NCBI RefSeq assembly: GCF_014218335.1
Contig: NZ_AP023367.1
Coordinates: 1,489,501 to 1,553,500 of the forward strand
From: Anaerocolumna cellulosilytica
Lineage (GTDB): Bacteria > Bacillota > Clostridia > Lachnospirales > Lachnospiraceae
Direction of reading: 5' to 3'
DNA length: 64,000 nt
Made by a program: the position numbers and the translations under genes
Notes under the pieces: model-generated
Seen by the model: the letters and a program-made list of their open reading frames with translations, nothing else
The model's database searches: none
What the model was told of the DNA's origin: nothing
In this document: in pieces, positions 932 through 50,339 of the stretch
How the letters are laid out: every line of letters starts with the position of its first letter
Numbering within the stretch: the first letter of the stretch is position 1

Positions 932-960
932 TTGAAATTTCCAATAATTTGTAATAAAAT
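932..960 (+). promoter_or_regulatory. sigma-A type promoter of the biosynthetic cluster
   Basis: TTGAAA and TAAAAT are separated by 17 bases, about 95 bases before the first ABC gene. A small hairpin (CGTGCC/GGCACG) lies between it and the start codon. It is the only good promoter seen upstream of the cluster, so the ABC genes and probably the downstream genes start here. Confidence 0.55.
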
Positions 961-1055
961 GATGAATAATAATTGTGGGCAGTATAAGTGGGAAAGAAAA
1001 GCACTTTCAACGATTGATTTAAGTGCGTGCCAAGGCACGTAGATAGGGTATAAAA

Positions 1056-2867
1056 ATGAATAAGGAAAAACCAAAGAATTTACACAACGCGATTAAGAGT
1101 AATATCTATATTTTGTCCATAGCCTTTAAGCTCTGTCCGCCCAGAGTAATTATGGATATTGCAGTGAATCTTATGTCAAAATTAGTGAGCTTTTATTTTT
1201 TATTGATTATTGAAACGCTGGTAAAAGGTCTGCAAAGGAATGAAGCTTTTGATAAGCTTGTGCTTATAGTTGTAATTAACTCATTCGTTCTTCTTGTAAT
1301 AAAAGGAGTTCAGTGTATCTATAATGAAAAAACAAAGCTGATATATGACCAGATACTGATTGAGCGGATGAATCTTATGGTTTTTGGAAAAGCATTTGAA
1401 GCAGATATCAGTTGCTATGAGGATGCAGAATTTTATGATAACTATACTAAGGCGGCAGCAGAAGCCAATGGACGTATTATAAAGGTAATAGATACTATAT
1501 CCAATATACTATCCGGTATTGTAGTGGCAGTTTGTTATTTAATAAAACTGGCTACGATTGATTATTTTTCAGTTATTATTGTCTTAATGCCGGTGCTGGC
1601 TACCAGTGTCATGGGTAAAAGATTGAAATTATTGGATTACAAGCTTACGATGGAGAATGTATCTCACAATCGAAAAAAAGATTATGTAAAGCGAACAGTA
1701 TATCTGCAAAAATATGCCAAGGAACTAAGGCTCTATCCAATTTTTTCTGTCTTACAGGAAATCTTTAATGAGGCAGTAGAAAATATAATTAAGAATATAA
1801 AAAAGTATTGTTATCCTATGATGGGCTTTCGATTGTTTCAAAGATTGTTTGCAGGTTCTCTGCCCACCATAGGTTTCATGATATATAAGGTATATAAAAG
1901 CATAAGGGAGCCGGCAGGCATCAGCGATTTTACCGTATTATTTTACGGAGTACTGTCTCTATCCGGTGCCATGGAAGTTCTTCTCTATAATTTAATCACT
2001 CTTCGAACAGACAGTTTATACATCGATAATTTGAAACAATTTTTAAATCATTCACCAAGTATTAAAAATGAAGTAAATGCAATTCCTGTACCGGAACGCA
2101 TTGAGAGTATCGAATTTGTAAACGTTAGTTTTTCTTATCCGAATTCCGACCGTCCGGTCTTACATAATATCAATTTAAAGTTACATATGAACAGATATGA
2201 AAAAGTCTCCATAGTTGGACATAACGGGTCCGGTAAAACAACTTTTGTAAAGCTGATTTTGCGTCTTTATGACCCGACAGAGGGAGAAATCAGGCTTAAT
2301 GGAATCAATATTAAAGCCTATGATTTAAAAGAGTATCGGAAAGCTTTTGGTACGGTATTCCAGGATTTTAATATTTTTAGTATGTCAGCAGCAGAAAATG
2401 TTCTTATGGAGGACGCAGAGCCGGGAAAAGAGAATCTGGTCAAAAAATCATTGGAGAAAAGCGGGATTTTAGATAAGGTGCTGACTTTAAAAAAAGGTAT
2501 ATATACCATGCTTACTAGGGAATTTGATGAAGAAGGCGAGGTACTATCCGGTGGGCAGAATCAGAAAATTGCCATAGCCAGAGCCTTTGCTGCTAACAGC
2601 AATGTACTTATAATGGATGAGCCGTCAAGTGCACTTGATCCGATTGCAGAAGATAAAATCTGGGACAGTTTAATAGAGGTGAGCCGTGGCAAAGGTGCAA
2701 TCTTTATCTCCCATAGAATGTCAGCCTGTAAGCTTGCAGATAAGATTTATCTTATGGAGAGAGGCTGCATTACAGAACAGGGTTCCCATGAAGAACTTAT
2801 AAATTATAATGGTAAATATGCAGATATGTTCAAAAAACAAGCTATGAACTATCAGTCGCAGGAATAG
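1056..2867 (+). CDS. ABC exporter half-transporter (permease-ATPase), cluster subunit 1
   Basis: 603 aa: about six membrane helices (residues 20-330) fused to a nucleotide-binding domain (about 350-600). Walker A is GHNGSGKTT (about 388-396), signature LSGGQNQK (about 497), Walker B VLIMDEPSSALD, H-loop FISHR. It lacks the N-terminal C39 peptidase domain of leader-cleaving exporters. The next gene starts 7 bases after its stop and encodes a similar protein, so the two probably form a heterodimeric exporter for the product of the cluster. The RBS (AGGGT) is weak. Function as exporter is from the family; the substrate is inferred from context only. Confidence 0.9.
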   Translation: MNKEKPKNLHNAIKSNIYILSIAFKLCPPRVIMDIAVNLMSKLVSFYFLLIIETLVKGLQRNEAFDKLVLIVVINSFVLLVIKGVQCIYNEKTKLIYDQILIERMNLMVFGKAFEADISCYEDAEFYDNYTKAAAEANGRIIKVIDTISNILSGIVVAVCYLIKLATIDYFSVIIVLMPVLATSVMGKRLKLLDYKLTMENVSHNRKKDYVKRTVYLQKYAKELRLYPIFSVLQEIFNEAVENIIKNIKKYCYPMMGFRLFQRLFAGSLPTIGFMIYKVYKSIREPAGISDFTVLFYGVLSLSGAMEVLLYNLITLRTDSLYIDNLKQFLNHSPSIKNEVNAIPVPERIESIEFVNVSFSYPNSDRPVLHNINLKLHMNRYEKVSIVGHNGSGKTTFVKLILRLYDPTEGEIRLNGINIKAYDLKEYRKAFGTVFQDFNIFSMSAAENVLMEDAEPGKENLVKKSLEKSGILDKVLTLKKGIYTMLTREFDEEGEVLSGGQNQKIAIARAFAANSNVLIMDEPSSALDPIAEDKIWDSLIEVSRGKGAIFISHRMSACKLADKIYLMERGCITEQGSHEELINYNGKYADMFKKQAMNYQSQE

Positions 2868-2874
2868 AGGGGTT

Positions 2875-4674
2875 ATGGAGAAGAAGGGACTGCAAAAAAC
2901 CATTTCCAATAATATATTTATCGCAAGATATCTTTTTAAATATGTATCATTTTATGCAGTATTTAAAATAGTGATGCAGATACTGAATGCACTTATTGGT
3001 GTTCTCACCTATACATATTCTTTAAAGTATATCATAGATTCTGTGCAGCAGCAAAAAGCCTTTGAAGAGGTTCTTTATATGCTGGTTCTTTTAGGAGCTG
3101 CAAATCTTATTATCCGTCTGATTGATGCTGCACTGGAGTATGTGGTGACCCCGGTAGCTAAAGAGAGGCTAAAACAGAAGCTGCAATTGGAACTTTTTGA
3201 AAAGGCGGTTGCTATGGATTTGGACTGCTATGATAATCCTGCATTTTTTAATGATTTCATTTTGGCAGCTTCTCAGGCGGAGGATCAGTGTTTTGAAATT
3301 TATAATACAATGATGGAGCTTTTAAACTTATTTATTGCGATTCTGTCCCTAGGAGCTATCATACTATCTGTAAACTATCTGGGTATTATACTTGCCCTGT
3401 TTACAGCCGTTACAACGTTGGTTAATAATGTAAGACTTAATCAAACCAGAAATCAAAAGTATATGGAAATAAAACCATTAGAACGTAAAGGAGAATATGT
3501 AAAGCGGGTCTTTTACCTGGCGGACTATGCCAAAGAAATGCGGCTTTATGATTTAAAGGATAAAATGTCAGGAATTTACACCAAATCAAGTCAGGAAACC
3601 AAAAAAGTTCTGAAAAAGTATGGTTATAAACTCAGCTTTTATGGCTTTGTTTCAGAGTATGCATTAAATGATTTTGTTATGTTTACTGTATTTATGCTGG
3701 TGTTACTTTATCAGACGGTAAAATTAAAAACCGTTACTTATGGAGCCTTTGCAACTATGTTTTATGCGGCAACCCAGTTAAAGGACCGTTTAATCAGTCT
3801 CTCCGGATTCTTTGGGAAATTTCAGGCAAACAGTCTATATATCGAATACTTTAGAAGATTTATAAGCTATATCCCTAAAGTGGTGGAAAAGCCGGATAGC
3901 AAGGAACCACTAAAGGAAGGGGATATCAATCTTAAGCAGGTGGAATTTAAGTACCGAAAAGAGCAAAGCTCCATTATAGATAATATCTCCATGAAGATAA
4001 CGCCTGGTGAAAAGGTTGCGATTATCGGATATAACGGTTCGGGAAAGACCACCTTAATTAAACTCATATTAAGACTGTATGATGTGACAAAAGGAGAAGT
4101 ACAGTTAGGAAATCAGAATATAAAGGATTACCGGTTAAAACAGTACCGGAATTTGTTTGGAGCAGTCTTTCAGGATTATCAGGTATATGCCGCATCCATT
4201 GCAAATAATGTAACAATGGATTGTTATACTGGTACCAAAGACAGGGAGGAAAAAGTAAAACAGGCACTGAAAGAAAGTGGTGTTCTGGAAGTCATGGGAA
4301 AATACCCAGATGGCATACTAACACCGGTGACTAAGGAATTTGATGGAAAGGGAGCGCTTTTTTCCGGGGGAGAGGAACAAAAATTGGCTATATCTAGAGT
4401 GTTTTATAAGGATTCCCCTTACATTATTTTAGATGAACCCTCCAGTGCTCTTGATCCTATTGCAGAATACAATCTAAACCAGACAATTAAGTCAGTATTA
4501 AAGGATAAAACCATTATATTTATTACACATAGGCTTTCGACTTCCCGAATTGCGGATAAGATATTTATGATGGAAGAGGGGAGAATTATAGAGGAGGGAA
4601 CACATGAGAGCTTAATGGAATTAGGTGGGAAGTATGCCAGAATGTTTCAGGTACAGGCAGAAAAGTATCTGTAA
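2875..4674 (+). CDS. ABC exporter half-transporter (permease-ATPase), cluster subunit 2
   Basis: 599 aa with the same architecture as the preceding gene: membrane domain (about 20-330) then ATPase domain. Walker A GYNGSGKTT (about 385-393), Walker B YIILDEPSSALD, H-loop ITHR. The signature motif reads FSGGEEQK in place of LSGGQ, a deviation often found in one half of heterodimeric exporters, where one catalytic site is degenerate. A GAGGGG ribosome site sits just ahead of the ATG. Likely partner of the upstream subunit in secreting the cluster's product. Confidence 0.9.
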   Translation: MEKKGLQKTISNNIFIARYLFKYVSFYAVFKIVMQILNALIGVLTYTYSLKYIIDSVQQQKAFEEVLYMLVLLGAANLIIRLIDAALEYVVTPVAKERLKQKLQLELFEKAVAMDLDCYDNPAFFNDFILAASQAEDQCFEIYNTMMELLNLFIAILSLGAIILSVNYLGIILALFTAVTTLVNNVRLNQTRNQKYMEIKPLERKGEYVKRVFYLADYAKEMRLYDLKDKMSGIYTKSSQETKKVLKKYGYKLSFYGFVSEYALNDFVMFTVFMLVLLYQTVKLKTVTYGAFATMFYAATQLKDRLISLSGFFGKFQANSLYIEYFRRFISYIPKVVEKPDSKEPLKEGDINLKQVEFKYRKEQSSIIDNISMKITPGEKVAIIGYNGSGKTTLIKLILRLYDVTKGEVQLGNQNIKDYRLKQYRNLFGAVFQDYQVYAASIANNVTMDCYTGTKDREEKVKQALKESGVLEVMGKYPDGILTPVTKEFDGKGALFSGGEEQKLAISRVFYKDSPYIILDEPSSALDPIAEYNLNQTIKSVLKDKTIIFITHRLSTSRIADKIFMMEEGRIIEEGTHESLMELGGKYARMFQVQAEKYL

Positions 4675-4822
4675 ATGTTAAGGATTTAACCAGACCTTCC
4701 AGAAAAAATAGAAAGCCTGTTTAAATACAATAAAAGCTGAAAGAAAATGAAAAGGAAAGGATGCCACCACAATGATTCTTTCAGTCTAAATGTGGCAATT
4801 GTACATAAGAGAGGATGTACAT

Positions 4823-5089
4823 ATGGGTGTTATTATGATTAATAAGGTTAAGGAGTTAATTGCAGAAGTTTTAGAAAATGATGTTTTAAAGCCTGAACAT
4901 ATGGAGGATTCAGCTAATATAGTAGAAGATATTGGGTTGGATTCGCTCCAGTTAATCAATCTGATGCTGCGGGCGGAGGATGAATTTGGTATTGAAATTG
5001 ATTTTGATAACCTGGATATGAAACATTTAGAATCTGTGCAGGCATTTTGCGATTATATTATATCGTGCAAAGAAGGTCTTAATGTATGA
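4823..5089 (+). CDS. acyl/peptidyl carrier protein
   Basis: 88 aa from the chosen ATG, which has AGAGAGGA about 8 bases upstream; an in-frame ATG 33 bases earlier has no such site. The helix-II motif DIGLDSLQLINLML carries the serine that takes a 4'-phosphopantetheine arm, and the rest fits the four-helix carrier fold (PF00550). The stop overlaps the start of the next gene by 4 bases (ATGA), coupling it to an ATP-grasp ligase. That pairing is the same as BtrI/BtrJ in butirosin biosynthesis, where the ligase loads an amino acid on the carrier. A role as amino-acyl carrier is inferred from this. Confidence 0.85.
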   Translation: MGVIMINKVKELIAEVLENDVLKPEHMEDSANIVEDIGLDSLQLINLMLRAEDEFGIEIDFDNLDMKHLESVQAFCDYIISCKEGLNV

Positions 5090-6432
5090 GACAGGAAGCT
5101 TTTGTGGTAGCAGGGAATTTTGATGCGGAAACTTTGTGGAGGGATGAGGAGCTTTGTCAGTTACCCTTTATTCCGGACAAAGCTTCCATTTTGATAACCT
5201 CTGCTCTGGATGAGCTATTATTTTTACTATGTAAACAAGGAGATGTACTTTTAACCAACAAAGCATTTGACGAAAGTTTGCTTAACTATGTACATCAATT
5301 AGGCTTTTCGTTTTACTGTAACCGGGAAGATTTAGCTAAGGATAGTAACAGCAGAGGACAAAGTGATGTGTTAAAAAATCTTTTGGAATATACCGGGGAG
5401 ATAAAGGGGGTTCCGCACGAAGGATTATTAGATAAAACGTTTCAGACTTTTGCTGTTACAAAGCATAGTAAAGCTTGGTGCAAAAAAGAAGGGATAAATT
5501 ATAATTACCCTGAACTACCGGTTATTAAGACCGTTAATTCTAAAAGGTATTCTTATGAGCTTAGAAAGAGCTTTGATATTGATATCGGCAGCAGACTGGC
5601 AGAAAGTACGGAAGAACTTATTGCTTTTGGAACTGCCATGTTAAAGGAGGGTAATCCGGTTATTCTAAAAGATATGTTTGGTGTATCCGGAAAGGGAAAT
5701 CTTCTGGTTAACGGAGAGGGAATACTTAACCGCCTTGTAAAATACATCAAAAAGCAGGAGGAGAAGGGGATGAAGGTTGAATTCCTTTTAGAGCCTTTTC
5801 TTCAAAAAGAGATTGACTTTACCTGTATTGCCTTTATAGAACAAGACGGAACTTTCAGGGTGTTGGATATACAGTATATGCAGGCTTCCGGTTTTGCTTA
5901 CAGCGGAACTTGCGAGCTTACAAAAGAATTGAAAGAAAAGATATTTGCCAGCAATTATATTCCCATTGTGGAACGGGCATGTAAGGAGTTATACAAAGCC
6001 GGTTACCATGGAGATGTGTGTATAGACTCCATGCTGCTGCCTGGCGGTGAATTTGTTCCAATCGTTGAAATCAATGCAAGGAAATCCATGACCTATATGA
6101 AATACTGTCTGGATGCTTACTTAAGACAATTTCATCAGAGGGCAAAATTCACTTATGCACCTTTTCATGCACCTTATGGCTATACAGTTGAAAACTTGCT
6201 TATCATGCTAGAAGGAGAAAAGCTCTTATATAAGCCAGAGAATGGTGCAGGCATCATGCCTCTTAGCGCGAATACCCTCTGTCTGAAAAAAGAAATGGCA
6301 GAGGATAAAGGAAAAAATTTAAAATCCAAGGGACGCCTGTATTATGGAATTATTGGGGAAACCATGGCAGAGATAGAGGGAATATCATCAAAGGTTAACC
6401 TGTTATTAGCTAAGTATGCCAATAACCTTTAA
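5086..6432 (+). CDS. ATP-grasp ligase, possible amino acid--carrier protein ligase (BtrJ-like)
   Basis: 448 aa. The N-terminal 150 residues look like a pre-ATP-grasp region; the ATP-grasp fold follows, with KDMFGVSGKGN (about 191-201) as the flexible phosphate loop, EKEID-like strand near 245, and the metal-binding end motif VEINARKS (about 326-333). ATP-grasp enzymes form acyl-phosphate intermediates and ligate carboxylates to amines or thiols. Because it overlaps the carrier gene by 4 bases, loading of an amino acid onto that carrier is the simplest role, by analogy with BtrJ. A peptide ligase role on a free amine is the alternative. A terminator hairpin overlaps its stop. Confidence 0.75.
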   Translation: MRQEAFVVAGNFDAETLWRDEELCQLPFIPDKASILITSALDELLFLLCKQGDVLLTNKAFDESLLNYVHQLGFSFYCNREDLAKDSNSRGQSDVLKNLLEYTGEIKGVPHEGLLDKTFQTFAVTKHSKAWCKKEGINYNYPELPVIKTVNSKRYSYELRKSFDIDIGSRLAESTEELIAFGTAMLKEGNPVILKDMFGVSGKGNLLVNGEGILNRLVKYIKKQEEKGMKVEFLLEPFLQKEIDFTCIAFIEQDGTFRVLDIQYMQASGFAYSGTCELTKELKEKIFASNYIPIVERACKELYKAGYHGDVCIDSMLLPGGEFVPIVEINARKSMTYMKYCLDAYLRQFHQRAKFTYAPFHAPYGYTVENLLIMLEGEKLLYKPENGAGIMPLSANTLCLKKEMAEDKGKNLKSKGRLYYGIIGETMAEIEGISSKVNLLLAKYANNL

Positions 6433-6456
6433 ATCACCCTTATTTTGGTGATTTTG
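6431..6456 (+). terminator. hairpin overlapping the stop codon of the ATP-grasp gene
   Basis: AAATCACC pairs with GGTGATTT and is followed by TGATTACTT. The T-run is poor, so it may be a partial terminator or an mRNA processing stem that splits expression of the cluster in two. Confidence 0.5.
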
Positions 6457-6538
6457 ATTACTTCCAGCCTCTAACCTGTTGTTTTTGCAATCGAATATTT
6501 TGAATATTTAACCAGAAAGGATAGAAAAGGTGTAATGA

Positions 6539-7642
6539 ATGAATCAAAGAGCAGCAATTCTAACCTCCGGTATGGGATTGGGAGTATATGTACCTTCTCT
6601 TATACTACATAATCAGTTAAATGAGGATGGATATGATAATCATATCTATATATATGAGGAGTATTTTACGGAGAAGGCAAAGAAAAATATGGAGTCCTAC
6701 CGGAAGCTTTTTCATAGAGATTTCAGAGCAGCAATAGCAGGGCATAAAATACCGCTCCATGCAGCAGGAAAAGTTGAGAATCTGGAATTATTCCAAGGTT
6801 TATACGAGGAATGGGAGAAAAATAACATCACCCATTTTCTAATGCTATCAGGACATTGGGACTTAGTACTTTCGGAATATTGTAAGCGTGGACATAAGGA
6901 GATACAGATTGAATGTCTTCGTCTTGATTGTGGAATAACACCCTCCTGGAGAAACTATCAAAAGGAAGATAGAAATGATAATACCCAATGGTTGTTCGCA
7001 AGAGCAGGGGAAGAGATTCATTATAAGATAACAGTTGATAATAAGGAAGTCATACCCTTTGCTAGTCGAAAAGAGGAGTATTTTGTCCATGGCGGCGGCT
7101 GGGGAATGGGTACTTACAGGGACAGTATCAAAGAATTGTCCGAAGTAGGTACACTTAATATTACGTTATATGACTTGGATGAAGTAGATAAAGATTGTTC
7201 TAATAATCAGTATTACTACATGGATGCGGATTGGAAGCCTTGGTATAAAGGAGCTTTCGGTGAATATTCTTTCCCGCCTATGAGGCCGCTTGCGAATAAG
7301 GACTTTATAAACAGTAATGTGTTGCCGCCGGCTTATGATATAACCAGGAGGGTGCTTGGTATCATCTCAAAACCAGGAGGCGGAACGCTGTTGGATTCAA
7401 TTTCTGCTGCAACACCGGTTATCTTTTTACCTCCCATTGCCGAGCATGAACGAAACAATGCAGATTACTTTATATCCCATAACCTTGGTGTTGATTTTGA
7501 TACATGGAAATCCTCCGGTTATTCCAGGGAACTCCTTTATACACTCCATGAAAACCTAATAAAAGTAAGAGAGAATACCACAGAATATAGAGAATATCTC
7601 ATAAAACAATGGAACAAGGTTCCTGCCACAAAAGACCTGTAA
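6539..7642 (+). CDS. GT-B glycosyltransferase-like protein
   Basis: 367 aa. The C-terminal half contains SKPGGGTLLDSISAATPVIF (about 277-296) followed by EHERNNADYF, which is the donor-nucleotide binding pattern of GT-B folds of the MurG/GT28 and GT1 types. The N-terminal half (ILTSGMGLGVYVPSLIL) fits the glycine-rich acceptor-domain strand. It may add a sugar to the cluster product or use the same fold for another transfer. AGAAAAGG lies 8 bases before the ATG; a second in-register-looking ATG 4 bases upstream is out of frame. Family call is moderate; donor and acceptor are unknown. Confidence 0.6.
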   Translation: MNQRAAILTSGMGLGVYVPSLILHNQLNEDGYDNHIYIYEEYFTEKAKKNMESYRKLFHRDFRAAIAGHKIPLHAAGKVENLELFQGLYEEWEKNNITHFLMLSGHWDLVLSEYCKRGHKEIQIECLRLDCGITPSWRNYQKEDRNDNTQWLFARAGEEIHYKITVDNKEVIPFASRKEEYFVHGGGWGMGTYRDSIKELSEVGTLNITLYDLDEVDKDCSNNQYYYMDADWKPWYKGAFGEYSFPPMRPLANKDFINSNVLPPAYDITRRVLGIISKPGGGTLLDSISAATPVIFLPPIAEHERNNADYFISHNLGVDFDTWKSSGYSRELLYTLHENLIKVRENTTEYREYLIKQWNKVPATKDL

Positions 7643-7656
7643 GGAGGTAAACAGTA

Positions 7657-8715
7657 ATGAACTTTAACTATCCGAAATGGCTGGTCTTTCAGGTTACCCA
7701 AAGATGTAATCTGCGGTGTAAGATGTGCTATGAATGGGGGGAGAGCGGTTCTTATTTTGAAAAACCAGAACTAATGGATTTGGACATTCAGGCAGCAAAA
7801 AAAGTCATAGAAGAATTGGCACAGCATAATCCATATTATGAGCTGTTTGGAGGGGAACCCCTAATGTACCAGCATATTGAAGAATTGCTAATGACTTTTA
7901 AAAAGTATGATTGTAAGGTAGATATTCCTACGAATGGAACCTTATTAAAGAAATATGCCAAAACCATGGTGGATAACCAGGTACGAAGAATCTGGGTATC
8001 CATTGACGGACCGGAGGAATTTAATGACAATCAGCGTGGACACGGGGTATATCAAAAAGCGGTGGAAGGATTAAACGAAATTTACCGTATTAGAGAAGAA
8101 CAGGGAAGTACTTATCCACTGCTAGGTGTAACCATGGTAGTAACCCCATATAACTATAAAACCATCTATTCCTTTTTTACAGAGGAGATAGATTATACCT
8201 TGTTAGATAACATTAGTGTTGAATTCCAGCTTTATATAACAGAGGCGAGGTATAATAAATGTCTTACTTTTATGGAGGAGGAATTTAGCCAGAGCAGTTT
8301 TTTAGGTGCTTCAGGGCTGGTTAGGGAACTAGCTGATTTTAAAGACATTGACATAGATGAACTTATGGGTCAGGTATTAAAGCTAAGGAACTTTTGCGAA
8401 GAAAAAAATATAAATATGATAGGTTATCCTAAAACCATGGAAAAGGAGAATCTGATGCATTTCTACCAGGGAGAGTGGGATGAGATGAAAGATAAAAGAA
8501 ACAAATGCTCTTTTCCATGGATTTATATGGAGGTTTCTGCGAATGGGGATGTATCGCCCTGTCATACCTTCTATGAAATGAAGGTAGGAAATATCTATGA
8601 ACAAGGGATTATGGACATCTGGAAAGGGGAGAGATTTCAGGAATTTCGAAAGAAGCTTAGAAATAAAGTATCTCCGGTTTGCTGTGCTTGTTCCAGATAT
8701 TACAGTGATTTATAG
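7657..8715 (+). CDS. radical SAM/SPASM enzyme, first of two
   Basis: 352 aa. The SAM-cluster motif CNLRCKMC gives C17, C21 and C24, followed by the GGEP strand motif (ELFGGEP, near 65-70). The C-terminal SPASM region carries cysteines in KCSFPW, SPCHTF and VCCACSRYY, enough for auxiliary iron-sulphur clusters. A strong AAGGAGG site precedes the ATG, 14 bases after the previous gene. Enzymes of this type modify peptides or carrier-bound amino acids by hydrogen abstraction. No precursor peptide was found nearby, so the substrate may be carrier-bound. Confidence 0.88.
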   Translation: MNFNYPKWLVFQVTQRCNLRCKMCYEWGESGSYFEKPELMDLDIQAAKKVIEELAQHNPYYELFGGEPLMYQHIEELLMTFKKYDCKVDIPTNGTLLKKYAKTMVDNQVRRIWVSIDGPEEFNDNQRGHGVYQKAVEGLNEIYRIREEQGSTYPLLGVTMVVTPYNYKTIYSFFTEEIDYTLLDNISVEFQLYITEARYNKCLTFMEEEFSQSSFLGASGLVRELADFKDIDIDELMGQVLKLRNFCEEKNINMIGYPKTMEKENLMHFYQGEWDEMKDKRNKCSFPWIYMEVSANGDVSPCHTFYEMKVGNIYEQGIMDIWKGERFQEFRKKLRNKVSPVCCACSRYYSDL

Positions 8716-8786
8716 CAAAAAGTTGAAAAAGAACATAGCTTTTAGTGTGAATGATTCATACAAACGTATGAGGGAAGGAGTATAGC

Positions 8787-9971
8787 TTGCAGGTAAAACC
8801 AAAGATGGATAAAAAAGAGTTTGAAATTATAAAGATAGCCGCAAAGAATATATCAAATGCCAAAAAAGCTGCAAATTCTGGAGATTTTTACGGAAAATTG
8901 CCCTCTATACTGGGGTTTAAGCTGACGAATCGTTGTAATCTACGATGTGCCCATTGCTATGAATGGAATAAGGACGGATACCATAACAAGATGGATACGG
9001 AATCCCAAAACAAAGATTTGGATATTGCAATTCTTAAAAAATGTCTTAAGGAAACAAGAGAGGTAAAATCCAATGTTTATTTGTGGGGTGGAGAGCCTTT
9101 CGTCTACAGCCATATTGATGAGGTACTAAAGTATTTGGCAGAAGACAGGCGTATAACGGCCATTTGTACCAATGGTCTTTTACTTTGTGAAAAGGCTGAT
9201 TTATTGGTGCCAATGTCAGAGAAACTAGAGCTATTGATTGCATTAGACGGAACGGAAGAGCAAAACGATGCTATACGTGGAAAACAGGTGCATAAAAGGG
9301 TAATCGAAGCTATGAAGTACTTTATGGAACTAAGAAATAGAGGAACATTTCATGGAAAAATATCGGTACATACGGTTGTAACAGATGCAAATATCCGCAC
9401 TCTAAGACAGCATATTCAGGAAATGGAGGAAATTGGAATAGACAGCCTTATCTTATGTCTGCCCTGGTACATATCTGATAAGACAACTAAAAAGATGGAT
9501 GCCTTCTATCAGGAGCATTTCTCCTGGTTGTCTGTAAGCCCGCAGGATCAGGTGGGAAGCTGGCATGCTTTTAAATTCCGTCTTGCCACTGAAAATATAC
9601 CTTTACTTAATCAAATTATGGAGGAGGTCAGGGAAAAAAGCTTCAAGCTTCCTATAAAATTACAGCCTAACCTTGGAGCAGAGCAGGTTGGATGCTTTAT
9701 AAAGGGAGAGGATTTAAAGGAAACAGGCAGAAGAATGTGCTTATCCGTTGCCAATCGTATGGATATCCTACCAAATGGAAAAATCACCTCCTGCAAGCAT
9801 TTTCCCGAATTTACCATTGGTGATTTACATACGGATTCTGTAACGAATCTTTGGGGGCATGAAAGAATGAACCGGGTAAGAGAAGTCCTGTATGGGCAAA
9901 CCATGCCGGTGTGTTCTAAGTGTAACAATTTTTATCTTCATGGTTATAGAGCAAAAGAACCGGTATGGTAA
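8787..9971 (+). CDS. radical SAM/SPASM enzyme, second of two
   Basis: 394 aa, beginning at a TTG codon; GGGAAGGAG lies 6 bases upstream and no other start fits as well. The motif CNLRCAHC gives C50, C54 and C57, followed by YLWGGEP. The SPASM end has cysteines in GCFIKG, RRMCLS, TSCKHF and PVCSKCNNFY. About 45 residues precede the core, more than in the neighbour, and could be a substrate-binding extension. It shares the RCNLRCxxCYEW stretch with the preceding gene, so the two are probably paralogues acting in sequence on one intermediate. Confidence 0.87.
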   Translation: MQVKPKMDKKEFEIIKIAAKNISNAKKAANSGDFYGKLPSILGFKLTNRCNLRCAHCYEWNKDGYHNKMDTESQNKDLDIAILKKCLKETREVKSNVYLWGGEPFVYSHIDEVLKYLAEDRRITAICTNGLLLCEKADLLVPMSEKLELLIALDGTEEQNDAIRGKQVHKRVIEAMKYFMELRNRGTFHGKISVHTVVTDANIRTLRQHIQEMEEIGIDSLILCLPWYISDKTTKKMDAFYQEHFSWLSVSPQDQVGSWHAFKFRLATENIPLLNQIMEEVREKSFKLPIKLQPNLGAEQVGCFIKGEDLKETGRRMCLSVANRMDILPNGKITSCKHFPEFTIGDLHTDSVTNLWGHERMNRVREVLYGQTMPVCSKCNNFYLHGYRAKEPVW

Positions 9972-10133
9972 CCGTGTGATAAGAAATTCCAAGCTGATTA
10001 AATACGTCAACTAAGAATTTCTATCATTTCACAACGAAGAGGCCAAAGATTGTAGGCTTCTTCATCTCAATTATGCCGCTGAGCGGTAGGTTTTTAAGGC
10101 TGAACGTGGGCAAGGACATAGAGGGGAGTTCGT

Positions 10134-11288
10134 ATGAAGAAGGCTACAGTTGCAATTGTTAAGATAAAGGATGGAAATTATAAAGAGGCTGTTAATGAAG
10201 TCTTTCAATTGTTGGGAGGTGTCCCTAAATATCTGCCCCCCTTAAGTAAGGTTATGATTAAGCCGAATTGGGTTACGGATAAACATTATACAACGGGAGC
10301 AGTTACGAATACTTTAGTTCTAAAAGCTCTAAGTGAAATACTTCTTAAGAACTCGGCAAAACATATTACCATTGGTGATAGTGCCATGATAGGTAAAAAA
10401 ACAGAAAGTGTCATAACTCTGAATGGAGTGGGCGCTCTTGCAGGGAAACGGGTAGACGTTGTGGATCTTAATCAAACAGAATATACCCGTGTAATAATCC
10501 CCAATGCTTTAAAATACAGAAGACTATCCCTGCCGGCAGTATTCTTAGAAAGTGATATGGTAATAAATGTGCCGGTAATGAAAACCCATGATGCCTTTCC
10601 TTTTACATTAGGACTAAAGAATATGAAAGGACTCTTGCCGGATAATGAAAAAAGAAAATTCCATAGTCTTGGGCTGGATGAAGGTCTGATAGATTTAAAT
10701 AAAGCAGCTTTGGCAGACTTTACGCTAATAGATGGAAGTATAGCCATGGAGGGGCTAGGCCCTGTGAATGGAACGCCTGTTAATCTTGGACTCCTAATAG
10801 GCTCCTCCAATGCACTTGCAGCTGAAGTAGTGGCTTATCATATCATGGGTTTTGGGCATTTGCAGCCGGCGTATATAGAGATGGCCCATAAAGCCGGCTT
10901 TGGAGAAAAGGAACTTAAGAATATACAGATTGTGGGGGAAAAGCTTGAGGAATCCATCCATCCCTTTGAAAGTTTTTACCAGAGACATAAGGTAGTAAAA
11001 GAATGTATTCATATTCATGATGAAACCGCTTGCAGCGGTTGTAGAGATGTTCTGGTTCAGTTTGCTAGCGGGTATAAGAGCAATAGTATGGAAAAGGTAG
11101 TGATTTATGCGGGAGATTATAACCCGGACATAGATACGAAAGGCTTTAAAACGATAGGAATCGGTAGTTGCCTGCATCAGCATAGGAACAAATTTGACTG
11201 TTTTGTTCCGGGATGTGCGCCTCTAAAGAAGAATCTGGATGCCGGGTATCAACAGTTGACAGGTACACTCCGGCAGGAGGTGAAATGA
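10134..11288 (+). CDS. DUF362-family protein
   Basis: 384 aa matching DUF362: MIKPNWV near 43-49, the NVPVMKTHDAF and LGLKNMKGLLP segments, and DGSIAMEGLGPVNG. The C-terminal 100 residues include CSGC, GSCLHQH and VPGCAPL cysteine motifs that could hold an iron-sulphur cluster. The function of this family is largely unknown; members are often fused to ferredoxin domains, so an electron-transfer or oxidoreductive role next to two radical SAM enzymes is plausible but inferred. GAGGGGAG precedes the ATG. The next gene begins 7 bases downstream. Confidence 0.8.
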   Translation: MKKATVAIVKIKDGNYKEAVNEVFQLLGGVPKYLPPLSKVMIKPNWVTDKHYTTGAVTNTLVLKALSEILLKNSAKHITIGDSAMIGKKTESVITLNGVGALAGKRVDVVDLNQTEYTRVIIPNALKYRRLSLPAVFLESDMVINVPVMKTHDAFPFTLGLKNMKGLLPDNEKRKFHSLGLDEGLIDLNKAALADFTLIDGSIAMEGLGPVNGTPVNLGLLIGSSNALAAEVVAYHIMGFGHLQPAYIEMAHKAGFGEKELKNIQIVGEKLEESIHPFESFYQRHKVVKECIHIHDETACSGCRDVLVQFASGYKSNSMEKVVIYAGDYNPDIDTKGFKTIGIGSCLHQHRNKFDCFVPGCAPLKKNLDAGYQQLTGTLRQEVK

Positions 11289-11295
11289 GGTCTGT

Positions 11296-12282
11296 ATGGA
11301 AAAAATAATAGTTGATTTTAGGGCGGAAGAAGCAGGAAAAAACTGCTTGTATTCCGCTATAAGAAATGTCTTAAACTATGAAGGATTAAAAATAACAGAA
11401 GCGGAGGTATTCTTTGCCTTTGGCGGACTGGATTTAAGATATCACCCAGAGCAGTGCTATTATGGTATTTCAGATATAATTGGCAATATAAAAAAGTATA
11501 TTGTACCTTGGATTTCTGTCGAGAGCGGGAGTGCTGCAAATTATAAGGAAACAGTATTGGATTTAAGTAAGCAACTGGATCAGAAGAAACCAGTTGTGTG
11601 CATCATTCAGGTTGGTAAGTTAAGTTATCTAGACGCACCAGAGGAAATAAAATCACCAAGAAGACATACCTGTGTCCTCTACGGATTGAATGAAGAGAAG
11701 GATAAGGCTTATATTGCAGATACATATAGGGTGGATAGGCTGGGAAATATAACGGTATTTATGGGGGAAATCAGCCTGAGAGAGTTGATGGCCGCATTGC
11801 AGGGATATTTTACTCTGAGTTGTCTTTTAAATACGGACTCCTTGCCAATACAAGGTATATTTAGGGAGGCTTTAACTGACTTTTTACATCCATTGACGAA
11901 GAAGAATTGTATTACTGGATATTCTGCATTTTTAGAGTATTTAAATCAGCTAAAAAACTATGATGCTGATAAGAAGCTTTATCAGCAAAAGTGTTTTGAG
12001 GCTGGATATCTCATTAAGGTAACTACTATACAACCTTATTTGGATTATTTTACGGAGATATTGCCAATTTTATCAGGCTGTGAGAAGAGCCATCTCTATC
12101 AGTTGGTGAAGGAACTTGAAGAGATAAAGACCATGTGGGATGATTTTAGAGTAAAATTAATTCGGGATAGCTTCCGGGACAAAGAAAAACGAGATAAAAG
12201 TTTATTTTCTTTTAGCGAAACGATTATGAAAAGGCAAAAAGAGATTTTTCAAGATATTAGTACGGCATGCAGTGGGAGCTAA
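11296..12282 (+). CDS. BtrH-like acyltransferase/papain-fold protein, first copy
   Basis: 328 aa. Residues 10-180 resemble the BtrH N-terminal domain: KNCLYSAIRNVLNYEG with Cys17, an FGGLDLRY segment, RRHTCVLYG with His124, and IADTY with Asp142, which together can form a Cys-His-Asp triad. BtrH transfers an acyl group from a carrier protein to an aminoglycoside in butirosin synthesis. The C-terminal half is helical and unrecognised. The RBS lies across the end of the previous gene. The last six codons come from a repeated sequence that recurs 83 bases downstream, so the natural C-terminus may have been altered. Confidence 0.7.
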   Translation: MEKIIVDFRAEEAGKNCLYSAIRNVLNYEGLKITEAEVFFAFGGLDLRYHPEQCYYGISDIIGNIKKYIVPWISVESGSAANYKETVLDLSKQLDQKKPVVCIIQVGKLSYLDAPEEIKSPRRHTCVLYGLNEEKDKAYIADTYRVDRLGNITVFMGEISLRELMAALQGYFTLSCLLNTDSLPIQGIFREALTDFLHPLTKKNCITGYSAFLEYLNQLKNYDADKKLYQQKCFEAGYLIKVTTIQPYLDYFTEILPILSGCEKSHLYQLVKELEEIKTMWDDFRVKLIRDSFRDKEKRDKSLFSFSETIMKRQKEIFQDISTACSGS

Positions 12283-12368
12283 TGTGAAATCAAGGATCAA
12301 TTTCACAGCCTGTTTGAAGGCATTGCCGAATTTGACAAGCAAATGCGGCATGCAGTGGGAGCTAATGT
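12263..12368 (+). repeat. dispersed intergenic repeat (copy A) flanked by 23-bp direct repeats
   Basis: A TGTGAAAT/ATTTCACA-type hairpin begins directly after the stop codon, followed by a segment ending in AAATGCGGCATGC. The 23 bases starting CGGCATGCAGTGGGAGCT occur both at the end of the coding sequence and at the end of the element. Related elements follow the KdpD-like and PflX-like genes. Confidence 0.75.
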
Positions 12369-12406
12369 AATGGGGGAGTCAATAAAATATTAAGGAGGGC
12401 TTTTTT

Positions 12407-14155
12407 ATGTACTTTAATACCTTAGGAACAATTATTGCTAATAATAAGAGATGTGATTCCATAAGCATTCGATGTGAGATAGACCGAATCAAAGAAATGC
12501 TTGCATCCTACGTAGTGTCCGGTGAAATTGTAGGTTTGGCCTTACCAAGAACCGAATATATACTAATAACGGTTATGGCACTTTTGGAGTGTGGAATTCC
12601 GTTTCTTGCCATTGATTTAAATCTGCCGGAGTCGAGAGTGAAACTCATGCTTCAAAATGCAGGGGTAAAAAAGGTAGTAACCACCAAGGGAGTGGCGAAG
12701 GAGCTGTTAGCAGAGTATGAGTGTATTTATATTGAGTCTGAGAAAAAGAAAGGGATTGCGGCAGACTACTCAGAAAATGAACTGGCGTATATTATACATA
12801 CTTCAGGCTCTACCGGGCAGCCAAAGGCAGTTGAGGTAACAAGAGTGGGACTCGCCAGTTTCTTTGAAGCAATGCCGGAGAAAATACCTTTTATACCAGG
12901 AAAGGCAATAGCCTGCTTATCCAATTACACTTTCGATATATTCTTTTTAGAAGCGGTACTGGCTTTAATTAAAGGACTTACAGTAGTTATAGCCAATGAA
13001 GAGGAACAAAGTAATCCCAAACGGATTATAGATTTAATTAAAAGGTATGATATTAAGCTGCTGCAAATGACACCCTCTAAGATGAAGCTAATCTGGTTGT
13101 ATGATAAGGAGTTAATTTGCTTAAACCGTGCAGAAGCCGTAATGCTTGGAGGAGAAGTCTTTCCAAAGGAGTTGTTAGAATTCTTAAAAACAAAACAGAA
13201 TCTTAAGATATATAACCTGTATGGACCGACAGAAACCACTGTCTGGAGTGCGGTCAGCGATTTAACCAGAAAGGAAGTAATTGACATTGGAGAACCTTTG
13301 TCTTATGTCAAATTCTATTTACTAGGTGAAGATTTAAAGTCGGTTAAAAAAGGTGAAACAGGTGAAATATACATAGGGGGAAAAGGTGTAGCAAAAGGAT
13401 ATAGGAATAACACAGAACAAACCGATAAGCATTTTGTTAAGCTATCCTTAGAGTTTAGGAATACAATGTACCGTACAGGAGACATGGCGCGTTATGATGA
13501 AAATGGCCTCTTAATATTTATGGGAAGAAAGGATAATCAGGTAAAGCTTAGAGGACACCGGATTGAACTGGAAGAAATTGATGCGAACCTAATGAAATTA
13601 GATGAAATTAAACTGACTGTTACTTGTTTTGATCAGGAGAATCAGGAACTCGTTACTTTTTATATTTCAGAGATACCTATAGAAACTTCCATACTGCAAC
13701 AGCATCTTAAGAAACTTCTGCCAGGCCACATGATACCGGGAAGATATTTCAGGACAGACAGTTTTATATATACCAACAGTGGCAAGATAGACAGAAGGAG
13801 TATGCTTTCATTAGCAGATACTCTGACATATGGAAGGCGTGCAGAAGATGCAATCAAATCGGAAATTACACTTGCAGATAAATCTTGTTTGAATCCTGTA
13901 GATGAGCAAATAATACAAATTATAGGGAAAAATATTAAAGAAAAAGGAAAAAAAGTAACTAGCAAAGACAATCTGTCAGATCTTGGGGTGAATTCTTTAA
14001 GTTACATAGACATAATTGTTCAATTTGAAGATGCCTTTGATATAATCATTGGAGATGATAAACTGTACCTAACTGCTTTTAATAATATCGGTGAGCTGAA
14101 AGAATATATTTGTAGCCTGCTTACCAAGAAAGAACAGGTGGAGGGGGTATCATAA
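12407..14155 (+). CDS. NRPS-type adenylation-carrier didomain protein, glycine-like code
   Basis: 582 aa. Adenylation core motifs in order: HTSGSTGQPKAVEV, NLYGPTETT, YRTGDMARY, GRKDNQVKLRGHRIELEEID and the A10 lysine in NSGKIDRRS. By alignment to GrsA positions 235-517 I read the pocket as D-I-L-Q-M-G-L-V-W-K, which is two conservative changes from the published glycine signature DILQLGLIWK. A carrier domain closes the protein (LGVNSLSYIDII holds the pantetheine serine). There is no condensation or thioesterase domain. AAGGAGGG precedes the ATG, and the next gene starts directly after its stop. It probably activates and tethers glycine for transfer by the neighbouring BtrH-like protein. Confidence 0.88.
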   Translation: MYFNTLGTIIANNKRCDSISIRCEIDRIKEMLASYVVSGEIVGLALPRTEYILITVMALLECGIPFLAIDLNLPESRVKLMLQNAGVKKVVTTKGVAKELLAEYECIYIESEKKKGIAADYSENELAYIIHTSGSTGQPKAVEVTRVGLASFFEAMPEKIPFIPGKAIACLSNYTFDIFFLEAVLALIKGLTVVIANEEEQSNPKRIIDLIKRYDIKLLQMTPSKMKLIWLYDKELICLNRAEAVMLGGEVFPKELLEFLKTKQNLKIYNLYGPTETTVWSAVSDLTRKEVIDIGEPLSYVKFYLLGEDLKSVKKGETGEIYIGGKGVAKGYRNNTEQTDKHFVKLSLEFRNTMYRTGDMARYDENGLLIFMGRKDNQVKLRGHRIELEEIDANLMKLDEIKLTVTCFDQENQELVTFYISEIPIETSILQQHLKKLLPGHMIPGRYFRTDSFIYTNSGKIDRRSMLSLADTLTYGRRAEDAIKSEITLADKSCLNPVDEQIIQIIGKNIKEKGKKVTSKDNLSDLGVNSLSYIDIIVQFEDAFDIIIGDDKLYLTAFNNIGELKEYICSLLTKKEQVEGVS

Positions 14156-15079
14156 ATGAAAAACAACCTGCATCTGGTTCCATTTACAGACCATTGGATC
14201 AATTGTGAAATCAATGATAACCTTACGGTTCTTACCTCATTAAACAGCAGTTATCGTCTAATTCCGCTGTTAAACGATTATATGTACCAGATGGCAGGAG
14301 ATTTAGGATGGATAACTTCCCTGGATATAAAATATTCCAGAGAGCTATTAAGCAGGTTGGAGATTCTGCATAAGAAAAACAGTACATTTACAGAGCAGGA
14401 TTATATGAAAGACATCAAAGCCTGTATTGACCAAGGAAGAGTAATAAATGTAGTGGTTGACTTGTATGACTGGATACCGGAAAGCCTTATGTATCAGCGC
14501 TATCATATGAGCCATTATTCATTGATTGCCGGTTACGATGATGAAGAAAAAATTTTTACTATTTATGATGATGATGCGAATGGCTATAAACAGCATATTA
14601 TACCATACGAACGATTTCAAAAGGCAGTATGGAGAGAGAATGGTATACAGATTAGGGAGATATGTCTGCCGGAACATTTAGAGGACTATACATTACCGGT
14701 ATCAAAAGTCATTGCATTTGCTACGAGAATTAAAAATGACATTACGTATCTGACCTATATGACTCATTTTTTTAATGAGATAGATGAAATGTTAATCCAT
14801 TACTTGTCAATGCTTTCAAAAATTACAAACAGGCAGAAGGCAAACCAGCAATTGTTTAGTTATCTGGCAGAACAAAAGGTTGTCAGGCTGGAAGTCGGTG
14901 AGGAATTGGTCAGGCTAGCATTACAATTACAAAACCAATGGCAAACAGTGAAATCTCTGTTCATAAAAAGCATGATATCTGATTGCAGGCCAGACTATAA
15001 AAGAATTAATACCTTAAGTTATGAGAATCTTCTGTTAGAGCATAAGCTTTGGAATATCTTTAGCAAAGCCGTGAACTAA
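14156..15079 (+). CDS. BtrH-like acyltransferase/papain-fold protein, second copy
   Basis: 307 aa, starting on the base after the adenylation gene's stop with GTGGAGGGGG just inside that gene, so translation is coupled. It aligns by layout with the first BtrH-like protein: Cys17 in HWINCEIN, His120 in MSHYSLIAGYD, and an Asp cluster near 138-140 (IYDDD). Sequence identity between the two copies is low, but spacing of the putative triad is the same. Being coupled to the glycyl carrier, it may release or transfer the tethered amino acid. The assignment rests on pattern, not on a search. Confidence 0.6.
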   Translation: MKNNLHLVPFTDHWINCEINDNLTVLTSLNSSYRLIPLLNDYMYQMAGDLGWITSLDIKYSRELLSRLEILHKKNSTFTEQDYMKDIKACIDQGRVINVVVDLYDWIPESLMYQRYHMSHYSLIAGYDDEEKIFTIYDDDANGYKQHIIPYERFQKAVWRENGIQIREICLPEHLEDYTLPVSKVIAFATRIKNDITYLTYMTHFFNEIDEMLIHYLSMLSKITNRQKANQQLFSYLAEQKVVRLEVGEELVRLALQLQNQWQTVKSLFIKSMISDCRPDYKRINTLSYENLLLEHKLWNIFSKAVN

Positions 15080-15213
15080 AAGCAATAAAGCAACTAAATA
15101 TTAAGTAAAGTATAGAAAGCTATAAGATACGAATAAAGTTATCCTTAAGCAACTTTTTTATTAGATAAGCTTATATAAAGTATGTAAAATAAACAGGCAG
15201 GAGATGATAGAGT

Positions 15214-16398
15214 GTGCTTATACAAGAAGGTTTATTCAGTCATGCCACAATAGACCGTAATAAGGAATATCTGGTATTTCAGGGAAGTTGTTTTTATGAT
15301 GGCATTGTAAAATGTATGGTGTTAGAAGAGAATTTAGATACGCTAGACTATGAGGTTATGTCCATAGGATGTGGAATTATGGGTAAGCTATCAGGCAAAA
15401 TACCGATAATGAAGAAAACGGGTATATATAACTTTCAGCTTTGGCTGGAAGATACGGCGGGAGAAGTTTTAGAGACGGTGCAAATTCTTCATGTGACTAT
15501 TAAAGATAACATATCTAATAATCTATCAGTGCCAGAAATAGGGAGAAACTCTATAGAATTGGAGCGTATCACATATCATAAGGATTGTGAGGATAATAAA
15601 GCATTAATCATTCTTACATACAAGAATGTAGCAGATGGGCTGTGTGTCAAAGACGCTGCTAAAGGATTTCATATAAAACTGGCGCCAAGGCTTATGGACT
15701 ATGGACAGATTACAGAAGTTCATATAGAAGGCAATAAAATTATGCTTAAAACCGCAATTGCGTATCAGGGACCTAACGATGTAAGTAGTGCTTTCCTCTC
15801 CTATAAATATCCGGCAGAGACTCAGAATATAATAACAGATTCACAGGGAAGATACATTCCCGAAATGGATATGGTAAGAGTTGTATCAGAAGGATTTCTT
15901 TCACCCTATATGAATGTATGGCAGATAAGCATAAGTGAAACCCTAAACGAGGATTTTCGCAGTATAGGGTATCCTTGGCATTTATCGGAAAAAGACTACA
16001 AAGAAGTCCAATTTCCCGGCTGGTACTGTGAAGTGCCAGAAGAGTTATGTTGTCATGGGGAAGAAGCTGTCATTTATTTCGCCGGGTATCTAATGTGTGA
16101 AGAAAGGGAGAATTTTTGCTTACATGCCGGAAGTTGCGACGAGAATAAGTTAAAGCTCTGGTTTGACAACATAGAAGTAATGTATACAGATAATTCGAAT
16201 CAGGGAGCGGCTAAACTATTCATAGAACCGGGGATACATGAAATATTATTTGCTGTGAACACTATGGGAGGCAAAGCTGCCGGAATTTATGCAAGGCTTG
16301 AAAAACTAACGTATCCCGGAGACGATGGGAATATAGTAAAAACCCATCCTAAATTTCCAGTTTTCATAAGAAAAGATTATGTAAAAAACTTTCAATAA
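15214..16398 (+). CDS. unknown 394-aa protein closing the biosynthetic cluster
   Basis: I do not recognise the family. The start is GTG with AGGAG about 10 bases upstream. The protein is soluble, without signal peptide or membrane helices, and is mostly beta-strand in character. Residues about 275-365 (FCLHAGSCDENKLKLWFD, later EPGIHEILFAVNTMGG) look like the PA14-type pattern of a beta-sandwich carbohydrate-binding domain. If so it could bind the glycosylated product or a cell-wall sugar. It follows the second BtrH-like gene after 134 bases and is the last gene on this strand before a long non-coding gap. Confidence 0.55.
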   Translation: MLIQEGLFSHATIDRNKEYLVFQGSCFYDGIVKCMVLEENLDTLDYEVMSIGCGIMGKLSGKIPIMKKTGIYNFQLWLEDTAGEVLETVQILHVTIKDNISNNLSVPEIGRNSIELERITYHKDCEDNKALIILTYKNVADGLCVKDAAKGFHIKLAPRLMDYGQITEVHIEGNKIMLKTAIAYQGPNDVSSAFLSYKYPAETQNIITDSQGRYIPEMDMVRVVSEGFLSPYMNVWQISISETLNEDFRSIGYPWHLSEKDYKEVQFPGWYCEVPEELCCHGEEAVIYFAGYLMCEERENFCLHAGSCDENKLKLWFDNIEVMYTDNSNQGAAKLFIEPGIHEILFAVNTMGGKAAGIYARLEKLTYPGDDGNIVKTHPKFPVFIRKDYVKNFQ

Positions 16399-27805: not shown

Positions 27806-28081
27806 ATGGAAGTTATAATAAGCAAAGCACTATCATGGCAAATAATAGATGGTACATTATATATTATTGATGAGCATACAAAAAGGATGTTTTTATTAAA
27901 TGATGTAGCTGTTTTTATATGGAATTCAATATGTAATAAAGATTCTATTGACACTATGATAAAAAAGATTACTAGCCAATATACAGTCAAAGAAGAAATA
28001 GTAAGATGTGATATTATAGAAATATATAATGATTTACAAACAAAAGGATTAATTGAATTAAAGAATAAAGAGGTACTATAG
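27806..28081 (+). CDS. PqqD-like RiPP recognition protein
   Basis: 91 aa matching the winged-helix PqqD fold: WQIIDGTLYIIDEHTKRMFL, then LNDVAVFIWNSI, then a C-terminal helix DIIEIYNDLQTKGLIEL. Stand-alone PqqD proteins bind the leader of a precursor peptide and hand it to the radical SAM enzyme. The radical SAM gene starts directly after its stop, so the two are translated together. Its ribosome site is weak (TAGGT) and the IS1182 element ends about 100 bases upstream, so its native promoter has been displaced. Confidence 0.85.
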   Translation: MEVIISKALSWQIIDGTLYIIDEHTKRMFLLNDVAVFIWNSICNKDSIDTMIKKITSQYTVKEEIVRCDIIEIYNDLQTKGLIELKNKEVL

Positions 28082-29086: not shown

Positions 29087-29137
29087 AAGTCAAATATTAA
29101 TGAAGTAAAATAATAAAAAATAAGACCAATTAATTTT

Positions 29138-29189
29138 TGATTAACTAAAATAAAGGTGCTTAATAAAGCATCTTTATTTTAGTTAATCA
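29138..29189. repeat. 24-bp inverted repeat with 4-base loop
   Basis: The left arm starts TGATTAACTAAAATAAAGG and pairs with the right arm ending CTTTATTTTAGTTAATCA, with one mismatch that is a G-U wobble in RNA. There is no T-run in the direction of transcription, so it is more likely an mRNA stability or processing stem, or an attenuator, between the maturase and the transporter genes. Confidence 0.85.
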
Positions 29190-29256
29190 GAGGAGAGGAA
29201 ACTATTTAAATTAAAAAAATATGTAAAGCTGTAAACAAAACAAGACAGGAGCAACT

Positions 29257-50021: not shown

Positions 50022-50044
50022 TCCAAACACTAAATAGGTAGAAG

Positions 50045-50089
50045 CCTGTCCCCAATCCGCTATTGGTCGAAATAGGATTTGGGGACAGG
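50045..50089 (+). terminator. strong hairpin between GH48 and GH9 genes
   Basis: CCTGTCCCCAATCC pairs with GGATTTGGGGACAGG, one base bulged. TTAAACTAATAAGG follows, so there is no T-run; it may be a weak terminator or an mRNA-stabilising 3' stem that sets the ratio of the two enzymes. The rest of this 318-base gap holds a second small stem (ATTGGT/ACCAAT at 50305-50322) before the GH9 ribosome site. Confidence 0.6.
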
Positions 50090-50339
50090 TTAAACTAATA
50101 AGGGGAGAATCATGCAGTCTTAATGTATGTACAGTGTATCAATTGTTTCTACGCCGGGATTTTGAAGCTATTCTGCCGAACGTATAAATTCAATCAGAGG
50201 TTATTATATTCCGAATAATAAACTTTAAAAGCTGGCTACATAATGTAATTGGGGAAAATGAGGGCAGTTATTCCGGCGATGAACGCTTAAACCGGTTAGA
50301 TACAATTGGTACACTGACCAATAAAAAGGAGGTTTAGGT

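Follow-up and report, generated by a model that had tools for sequence, protein, structure and literature searches.

The 64,000-nucleotide stretch of the Anaerocolumna cellulosilytica genome analysed here (contig NZ_AP023367.1, positions 1,489,501 to 1,553,500; hereafter the window) carries near its start a compact cluster of genes for carrier proteins, a putative glycosyltransferase and two radical S-adenosylmethionine (SAM) enzymes. The host genome comprises 5.43 Mb in the single contig that holds the window. A preliminary description of this DNA had reported twelve same-strand genes, partly coupled by overlap, and all twelve open reading frames (ORFs) were found on the forward strand, spanning positions 1056-16398 of the window with gaps of at most 162 bp. 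They encode, in order, two ATP-binding cassette (ABC) exporter subunits (ABC1 and ABC2), an acyl carrier protein (ACP), an ATP-grasp ligase, a GT-B glycosyltransferase, the radical SAM enzymes rSAM1 and rSAM2, a DUF362 protein, the papain-like protein BtrH1, an adenylation protein with its own carrier domain (A-T), a second papain-like protein, BtrH2, and a last protein of no recognised family. The ACP and ATP-grasp ORFs overlap by 4 bp (5086-5089), and the end of the A-T gene is contiguous with the start of BtrH2 (14155/14156). Families were assigned to the 12 proteins with Pfam and NCBIfam. Composition gives no signal of horizontal transfer, as the G+C content of the cluster (0.35-0.40) lies inside the range of its surroundings; promoter-like sites in the region number 66, with 60.9 expected.

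The exporter subunits, of 603 aa (1056..2867) and 599 aa (2875..4674), match ABC_tran at 109.9 and 97.0 bits, respectively. The free-standing carrier protein (4790..5089) matches PP-binding at 45.5 bits and bears the serine motif GLDSLQ. It is followed by the ATP-grasp ligase (5086..6432), a predicted carrier loader with a weak Pfam ATP-grasp match (17.3 bits, under the cut-off of 27), and by the MurG/UGT-like GT-B protein (6539..7642), for which Pfam gives a weak Glyco_tran_28_C match only (13.8 bits, cut-off 22). Both rSAM1 (7657..8715) and rSAM2 (8787..9971) match the Radical_SAM and SPASM families above cut-off.

Relatives of the cluster were collected by two routes. With the ATP-grasp protein as query, nine of 392 genomes of the order matched, three of them strongly (the own genome, G184 and G148), as did three Streptomyces plasmid records; ACP, ATP-grasp, GT-B and rSAM2 were all present around the match in G184, in G148 and in two of these three plasmid records. 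Five-member alignments gave conserved blocks. The GT-B alignment was then scanned against the genomes of 84,980 species, giving 150 relatives of which the best 80 were kept; unlike this alignment, the single ATP-grasp protein used as query in a genome scan returned no matches. Of the resulting 83 distinct loci, 80 stem from the GT-B scan and three (L012, L013 and L014) came via ATP-grasp; GT-B is therefore present by construction in those 80, since they were chosen by glycosyltransferase similarity. An 84th locus, L015, duplicates the contig of L038 (Cellulosilyticum ruminicola, 74079 bases), and was removed from the counts at stricter scores (83 loci) and kept in those at E 1e-4 (84 loci) and in the counts of aligned residue rows. 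The sequence taken around each match mostly reached no more than about 10 kb on each side (15 kb for L012 and L013), and absences are uncertain in L019, L044, L050, L076 and L089, because their contigs end near the match. Neighbouring families were grouped by sequence similarity, and Pfam was applied to one representative per group. The best 80 of the 150 GT-B relatives belong mostly to Paenibacillus and Clostridia, the others coming from Kribbella, Umezawaea, Kibdelosporangium, Actinosynnema, several cyanobacteria, Pedobacter, and metagenome-assembled genomes (MAGs) of Prolixibacteraceae and Chitinispirillaceae. We take the loci to span five phyla (Bacillota, Actinomycetota, Cyanobacteriota, Bacteroidota and that of the Chitinispirillaceae MAG). 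The GT-B gene is rare in an even draw of the phylum, with 4 of 398 genomes matching at E 1e-30, the own one included.

Across these loci a small set of genes recurs. Counting best hits at E 1e-4 in the 84 loci, GT-B is found in 84, ATP-grasp in 81, ACP in 75 and rSAM2 in 73, followed by rSAM1 (17), BtrH1 (13) and A-T (12, by similarity to the adenylation or carrier domain only). Stricter scores leave ATP-grasp in 78 of the 83 distinct loci (>50 bits), ACP in 74, and rSAM2 and rSAM1 in 72 and 15 (>150 bits each). ACP, ATP-grasp, GT-B and rSAM2 occur all together in 67/83, and in 54 of these 67 core loci ATP-grasp and GT-B lie no more than 300 bp apart. These four genes very probably form a genuine conserved core for the synthesis of a specialised metabolite, joined in a subset of loci by rSAM1. 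The closest locus, L019 from an uncultured Clostridia MAG, has ABC1-ABC2-ACP-ATP-grasp-GT-B-rSAM1 in this order before its contig ends, with the exporter subunits in the same place (47% and 49% identity). The gene set is more than a chance grouping, since genes 1-6 thus keep their order in a different organism, at 41-60% identity. Among the accessory genes, Gfo/Idh/MocA oxidoreductases lie near the module in 41/83 loci and APH-family kinases in 10/83, both families being frequent in sugar pathways. A pyridoxal phosphate (PLP)-dependent decarboxylase is present in 16/83, and a ketoacyl synthase (KAS) III-like protein, assigned from a sub-threshold match (19 bits, cut-off 24), in 7/83. In Ruminiclostridium, Cohnella and Gorillibacterium (L035, L065, L080, L082 and L085) we also observed a sister type of cluster, which contains a GT-B relative, an A-domain-like gene, a distant ATP-grasp and a PLP decarboxylase; L035 additionally holds NTP_transf_5, a GT2 protein and BtrH2-like stretches.

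All 22 aligned rows of the ATP-grasp protein keep K153, K195, D314, E328 and N330. The AlphaFold model of the GT-B protein has a predicted local distance difference test score (pLDDT) of 89.2, and a Foldseek search matched it to MurG and UDP-glycosyltransferases; superposition on MurG (3s2u) with VIA-align gave a Z of 20.6 and a root mean square deviation of 3.1 over 281 aligned residues. The modelled protein has the two Rossmann-like domains and the topology of MurG and UGT enzymes. In rSAM1, the CX3CX2C motif (C17/C21/C24) and four auxiliary cysteines (C284, C302, C342 and C345) are conserved in 18/18 rows, and in rSAM2 the auxiliary C318, C336, C376 and C379 are conserved in 74/74 and the radical SAM cysteines C50/C54/C57 in 73/74; these rows comprise matches of >150 bits, those of L015 and L038 being one sequence. 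The cysteines of a second auxiliary cluster were sought in the same rows. For rSAM2 no further cysteine is conserved in at least half of the rows after the CX2C pair, and for rSAM1 one extra cysteine lies beside the pair in 10/18 rows and is absent from the window protein. The preliminary description had called both proteins SPASM enzymes, which holds for the family matches; the cysteine pattern indicates that they end in a BtrN-like four-Cys twitch site and not in a full SPASM domain. BtrN is described as a twitch enzyme that has a four-Cys auxiliary cluster and oxidises an aminocyclitol (PMC9012708).

The profiles of rSAM1 and rSAM2 are clearly related to each other (hhalign probability 100, 28% identity). 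A search of three genomes (the own genome G000, G184 and G148) placed close relatives of rSAM2 in the module alone: the two other genomes gave 366 and 337 bits, rSAM1 of the same module came next with 133-136 bits (own genome and G148), and everything beyond these two module proteins scored <40 bits.

Downstream of the core lies what may be a transfer arm. BtrH1 (11296..12282) and BtrH2 (14156..15079), both papain-like aminoacyl transferases by family, match BtrH_N at 52.0 and 31.0 bits (cut-off 29.7). C17, H124 and D142 of BtrH1 are invariant in 7 rows, as are N16-C17 of BtrH2 in 4 rows. Among 295 genomes BtrH2 matched only in the own genome, in G126 and, weakly, in G163 and G184, and a plasmid search with it returned no matches. 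Between them, the A-T protein (12407..14155) combines AMP-binding (170.2 bits) with PP-binding (35.4 bits). The preliminary description had termed it glycine-type, and the pocket read by motif anchors, D-I-L-Q-M-G-L-V-W, fits what we take to be the glycine code, making a glycine-type pocket plausible; the nearest solved A domains leave the specificity unsettled. Among these, 8xjz_C gives the highest-scoring single stretch (282.5 bits), followed by 5u89 (226), 8www (211.3) and 4zxh (209.8), and LgrA tops the table only by the sum of two A domains (144.3 + 191.4). Glycine is presumably the substrate of 5u89 (DhbF), of 4zxh and of the second A domain of LgrA. In a separate region of the own genome (G000:C1, about 2063000-2080000; L109), a locus resembling non-ribosomal peptide synthetase (NRPS) and polyketide synthase (PKS) clusters carries BtrH1-like and BtrH2-like genes and is thus a second BtrH user; one of its genes presumably resembles an aspartate decarboxylase.

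Relatives carry other arms beside the same core. A complete butirosin-like arm, comprising an additional ATP-grasp and an additional ACP together with a PLP decarboxylase of the ornithine/diaminopimelate/arginine type and a BtrH1 homologue, is present in 11/67 core loci, all from Paenibacillus (L031, L045, L046, L048, L052, L055, L056, L063, L069, L071 and L072). Since BtrH1 homologues accompany the core in 13/84 loci and complete arms in these 11, a BtrH1-type transfer arm beside the core is a recurrent arrangement. A condensation-domain protein stands beside the core in one Streptomyces relative, and a KAS III-like protein in L020, L022 and L029. We read these sets as one core with apparently interchangeable release chemistry, of which the window would represent the version with a glycine-type A-T protein and two BtrH proteins. 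With an iterated profile, BtrH-like proteins of any kind were found in 44/83 loci. Of 53 such ORFs, 23 lack the full Cys/His/Asp set, and one group, C14 (e.g. L084:17614-18690), seems to have lost the catalytic cysteine; comparisons of groups C14 and C23 with the BtrH profile carry a risk of circularity, since the underlying alignment had been extended iteratively with sequences from these very loci. An 879-aa protein at L048:5691-8330 (frame opened at the first start codon) has a depolymerase-like match below cut-off, and its similarity group has members in six loci (L031, L048, L065, L071, L080 and L082).

Two of the twelve genes are doubtful members of the pathway. The DUF362 protein (10134..11288; PF04015, 145.5 bits) was considered as a partner of the core and found to be unsupported: none of the 84 loci has a match at E 1e-4, and the 1.5 kb flanking each of nine distant relatives (about 30% identity) contain no counterpart of the window's remaining genes. 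It is separated from rSAM2 by the largest gap inside the cluster (162 bp), in which a hairpin of 6 pairs at 10074..10088 (forward strand), followed by GGTTTTTAAG, resembles a weak terminator; as 15 terminator-like sites were found in the region against 10.6 (sd 3.2) expected, this hairpin is weak evidence. The last gene (15214..16398) has no Pfam match, an unusable model (pLDDT 35) and two weak partial matches in 294 other genomes.

We propose that the cluster directs the biosynthesis of a small aminoacyl glycoside on carrier proteins, a full mechanism for which we infer substrates, step order and product and to which we assign a probability of roughly 0.4. The ATP-grasp ligase would join an amino acid to the free carrier, as we take BtrJ to do in butirosin biosynthesis. 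GT-B would glycosylate this amino acid, either while it is bound to the carrier or once released, and rSAM2, with rSAM1 in this subset, may catalyse two-electron oxidations of the BtrN kind, the simplest target being a hydroxyl group of the tethered sugar. Glycine would be activated on the second carrier by the A-T protein. BtrH1 and BtrH2 would transfer both carrier-bound aminoacyl groups, glycine as well as the glycosyl unit, through amide or ester bond formation that frees the product, and the paired ABC proteins would export it.

Several observations weigh against this proposal. That GT-B acts on a carrier-bound rather than a free substrate is something we infer, and neither a sugar-nucleotide synthesis gene nor a Gfo/Idh member was found among the 12 genes with Pfam and NCBIfam. 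Among generic radical SAM families, the best matches, to peptide maturases and the maturase of a tungsten enzyme, all fall far short of the cut-off, and SPASM/twitch enzymes act on peptides too. The best solved relatives of the A domain do not by themselves show glycine. The arrangement of A-T, BtrH1 and BtrH2 was seen nowhere else, nor were genes 8-12 observed in this form beside the core of any other locus; the iterated BtrH search can drift, and for 16 of its 44 loci the alignment includes no protein that has Cys together with His. At the scores used, the core is incomplete by one gene in 16/83 loci, and the five loci of the sister type pair a GT-B relative with a different gene set and without rSAM2.

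Some of these points would also suit an unlikely alternative, in which two neighbouring units meet here, genes 1-7 making and exporting one product and genes 8-12 forming a separate short glycine-using pathway. The synteny of genes 1-6 in L019 and the wide recurrence of genes 3-7 accord with it, as do the 162-bp gap with its hairpin and the lack of any direct match at E 1e-4 in the 84 core loci for BtrH2 and the last gene, as for DUF362. The host has three further BtrH_N proteins above cut-off besides the BtrH-bearing NRPS/PKS-like locus. All genes nevertheless share one strand with short gaps, and the BtrH1 homologues and butirosin-like arms beside the core in relatives argue against it. The neighbourhood comparison goes partly against the single cluster of the preliminary description: genes 3-7 form one conserved unit, extended by genes 1-2 in L019, whereas DUF362, BtrH2 and the last gene are unmatched.

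The preliminary description had itself envisaged a carrier-bound dipeptide-like intermediate. Such a route, with radical chemistry on the amino acid (e.g. dehydrogenation, epimerisation or cross-linking) and glycosylation late or on the released product, we consider rather improbable. Dipeptide assembly would suit the two carriers, the glycine-type pocket and the pair of BtrH proteins, peptide maturases appear among the generic radical SAM matches, though far below cut-off, and the solved structures best matching the radical SAM part of the rSAM2 profile are peptide-acting SPASM enzymes (SkfB 6efn, E 1.6e-13; 5wgg), ahead of BtrN. The C-terminal part of that profile, however, matches BtrN (4m7t, E 5.9e-9), the auxiliary site is of the BtrN four-Cys type, and GT-B belongs to the conserved core whereas the glycine A-T protein does not. 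A dipeptide-like joining to glycine by BtrH could still be the final step, and a carrier-bound glycoside seems at least as likely as a dipeptide because GT-B is conserved and the twitch site is of BtrN type. Decoration of a surface polymer or lipid by the core, instead of synthesis of a diffusible compound, would agree with the distant similarity of GT-B to diacylglycerol glucosyltransferases and MurG, and with genes near some loci whose sequence starts we take to be of nucleotide-sugar type. We regard it as very improbable, given ABC-2 permeases (PF06182) in 53/84 loci and the compact locus L020, where the core genes are accompanied by a KAS III-like gene, a kinase of the APH family and a presumed exporter of the multidrug and toxic compound extrusion type, likened from its sequence start.

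Beyond the aminoacyl glycoside proposed for the window, we offer tentatively, as possible though doubtful, that the loci represent an undescribed cross-phylum pathway class, in which a sugar is attached to a carrier-tethered amino acid and then radically oxidised there, and interchangeable release arms couple a second building block. These arms would be BtrH with a glycine A-T protein, butirosin-like sets, a condensation domain and perhaps the KAS III-like protein. A four-gene core in five phyla for which no described product was found would suggest that a family of aminoacyl glycosides has been overlooked, and the tethered-sugar reading, if true, would mean that twitch radical SAM enzymes modify sugars on a carrier protein. 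The HGGGWGMGTY motif of GT-B offers a simple genome-mining key for the core.

Two other parts of the window deserve mention. Positions 27806-32812 look like a cluster for a ribosomally synthesised and post-translationally modified peptide (RiPP), with a 91-aa ORF that we take to be PqqD-like, a radical SAM protein whose matches to SPASM maturases are all below cut-off, and two ABC exporters; no precursor was identified among the small ORFs listed. This stretch has a low G+C content (0.25-0.29 over 28001-32000) and adjoins a transposase-like ORF (25962-27548). At 47205-53291 lie two large ORFs, presumably secreted cellulases with repeated C-terminal domains, and the host is therefore probably cellulolytic.

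The butirosin pathway is among the closest known systems. Its side chain, 4-amino-2-hydroxybutyrate (AHBA), is made and attached through BtrI, BtrJ, BtrK, BtrO, BtrH and BtrG. The AHBA pathway, taken together with BtrN, shares with the window a free carrier, an ATP-grasp ligase, a BtrH-type transferase and a four-Cys twitch radical SAM enzyme; the window's 12 genes differ in having no PLP decarboxylase (BtrK), monooxygenase or cyclitol family, and in adding GT-B, a glycine-type A-T protein and two radical SAM enzymes. The butirosin-like logic noted in the preliminary description is supported by the 11 relative loci with complete arms (e.g. L046 and L069); these arms adjoin the same core and include a BtrH1 homologue, but are of decarboxylase type where the window has the glycine-type A-T protein. 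BtrH-family papain-like transacylases and ATP-grasp ligases also occur in other operons (PMC2922099), as described in a paper whose main text contains neither 'radical SAM' nor 'glycosyltransferase'. As in NRPS systems with free-standing A-T proteins, the window's A domain is fused to a carrier domain, but no condensation or thioesterase domain was found among the 12 proteins and BtrH would perform the transfer. GT-B shares with the MurG/UDP-glycosyltransferase superfamily (GT1/GT28) its modelled fold and a C-terminal PGGGT-type nucleotide-sugar motif, and is set apart by an HGGGWGMGTY block of its own and by its repeated association with ACP and ATP-grasp. In line with the preliminary description, no pathway with this gene set was found described in full-text searches of one open-access library. 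The cluster is best read as a variant of butirosin-type carrier logic that appears to be new as far as searched.

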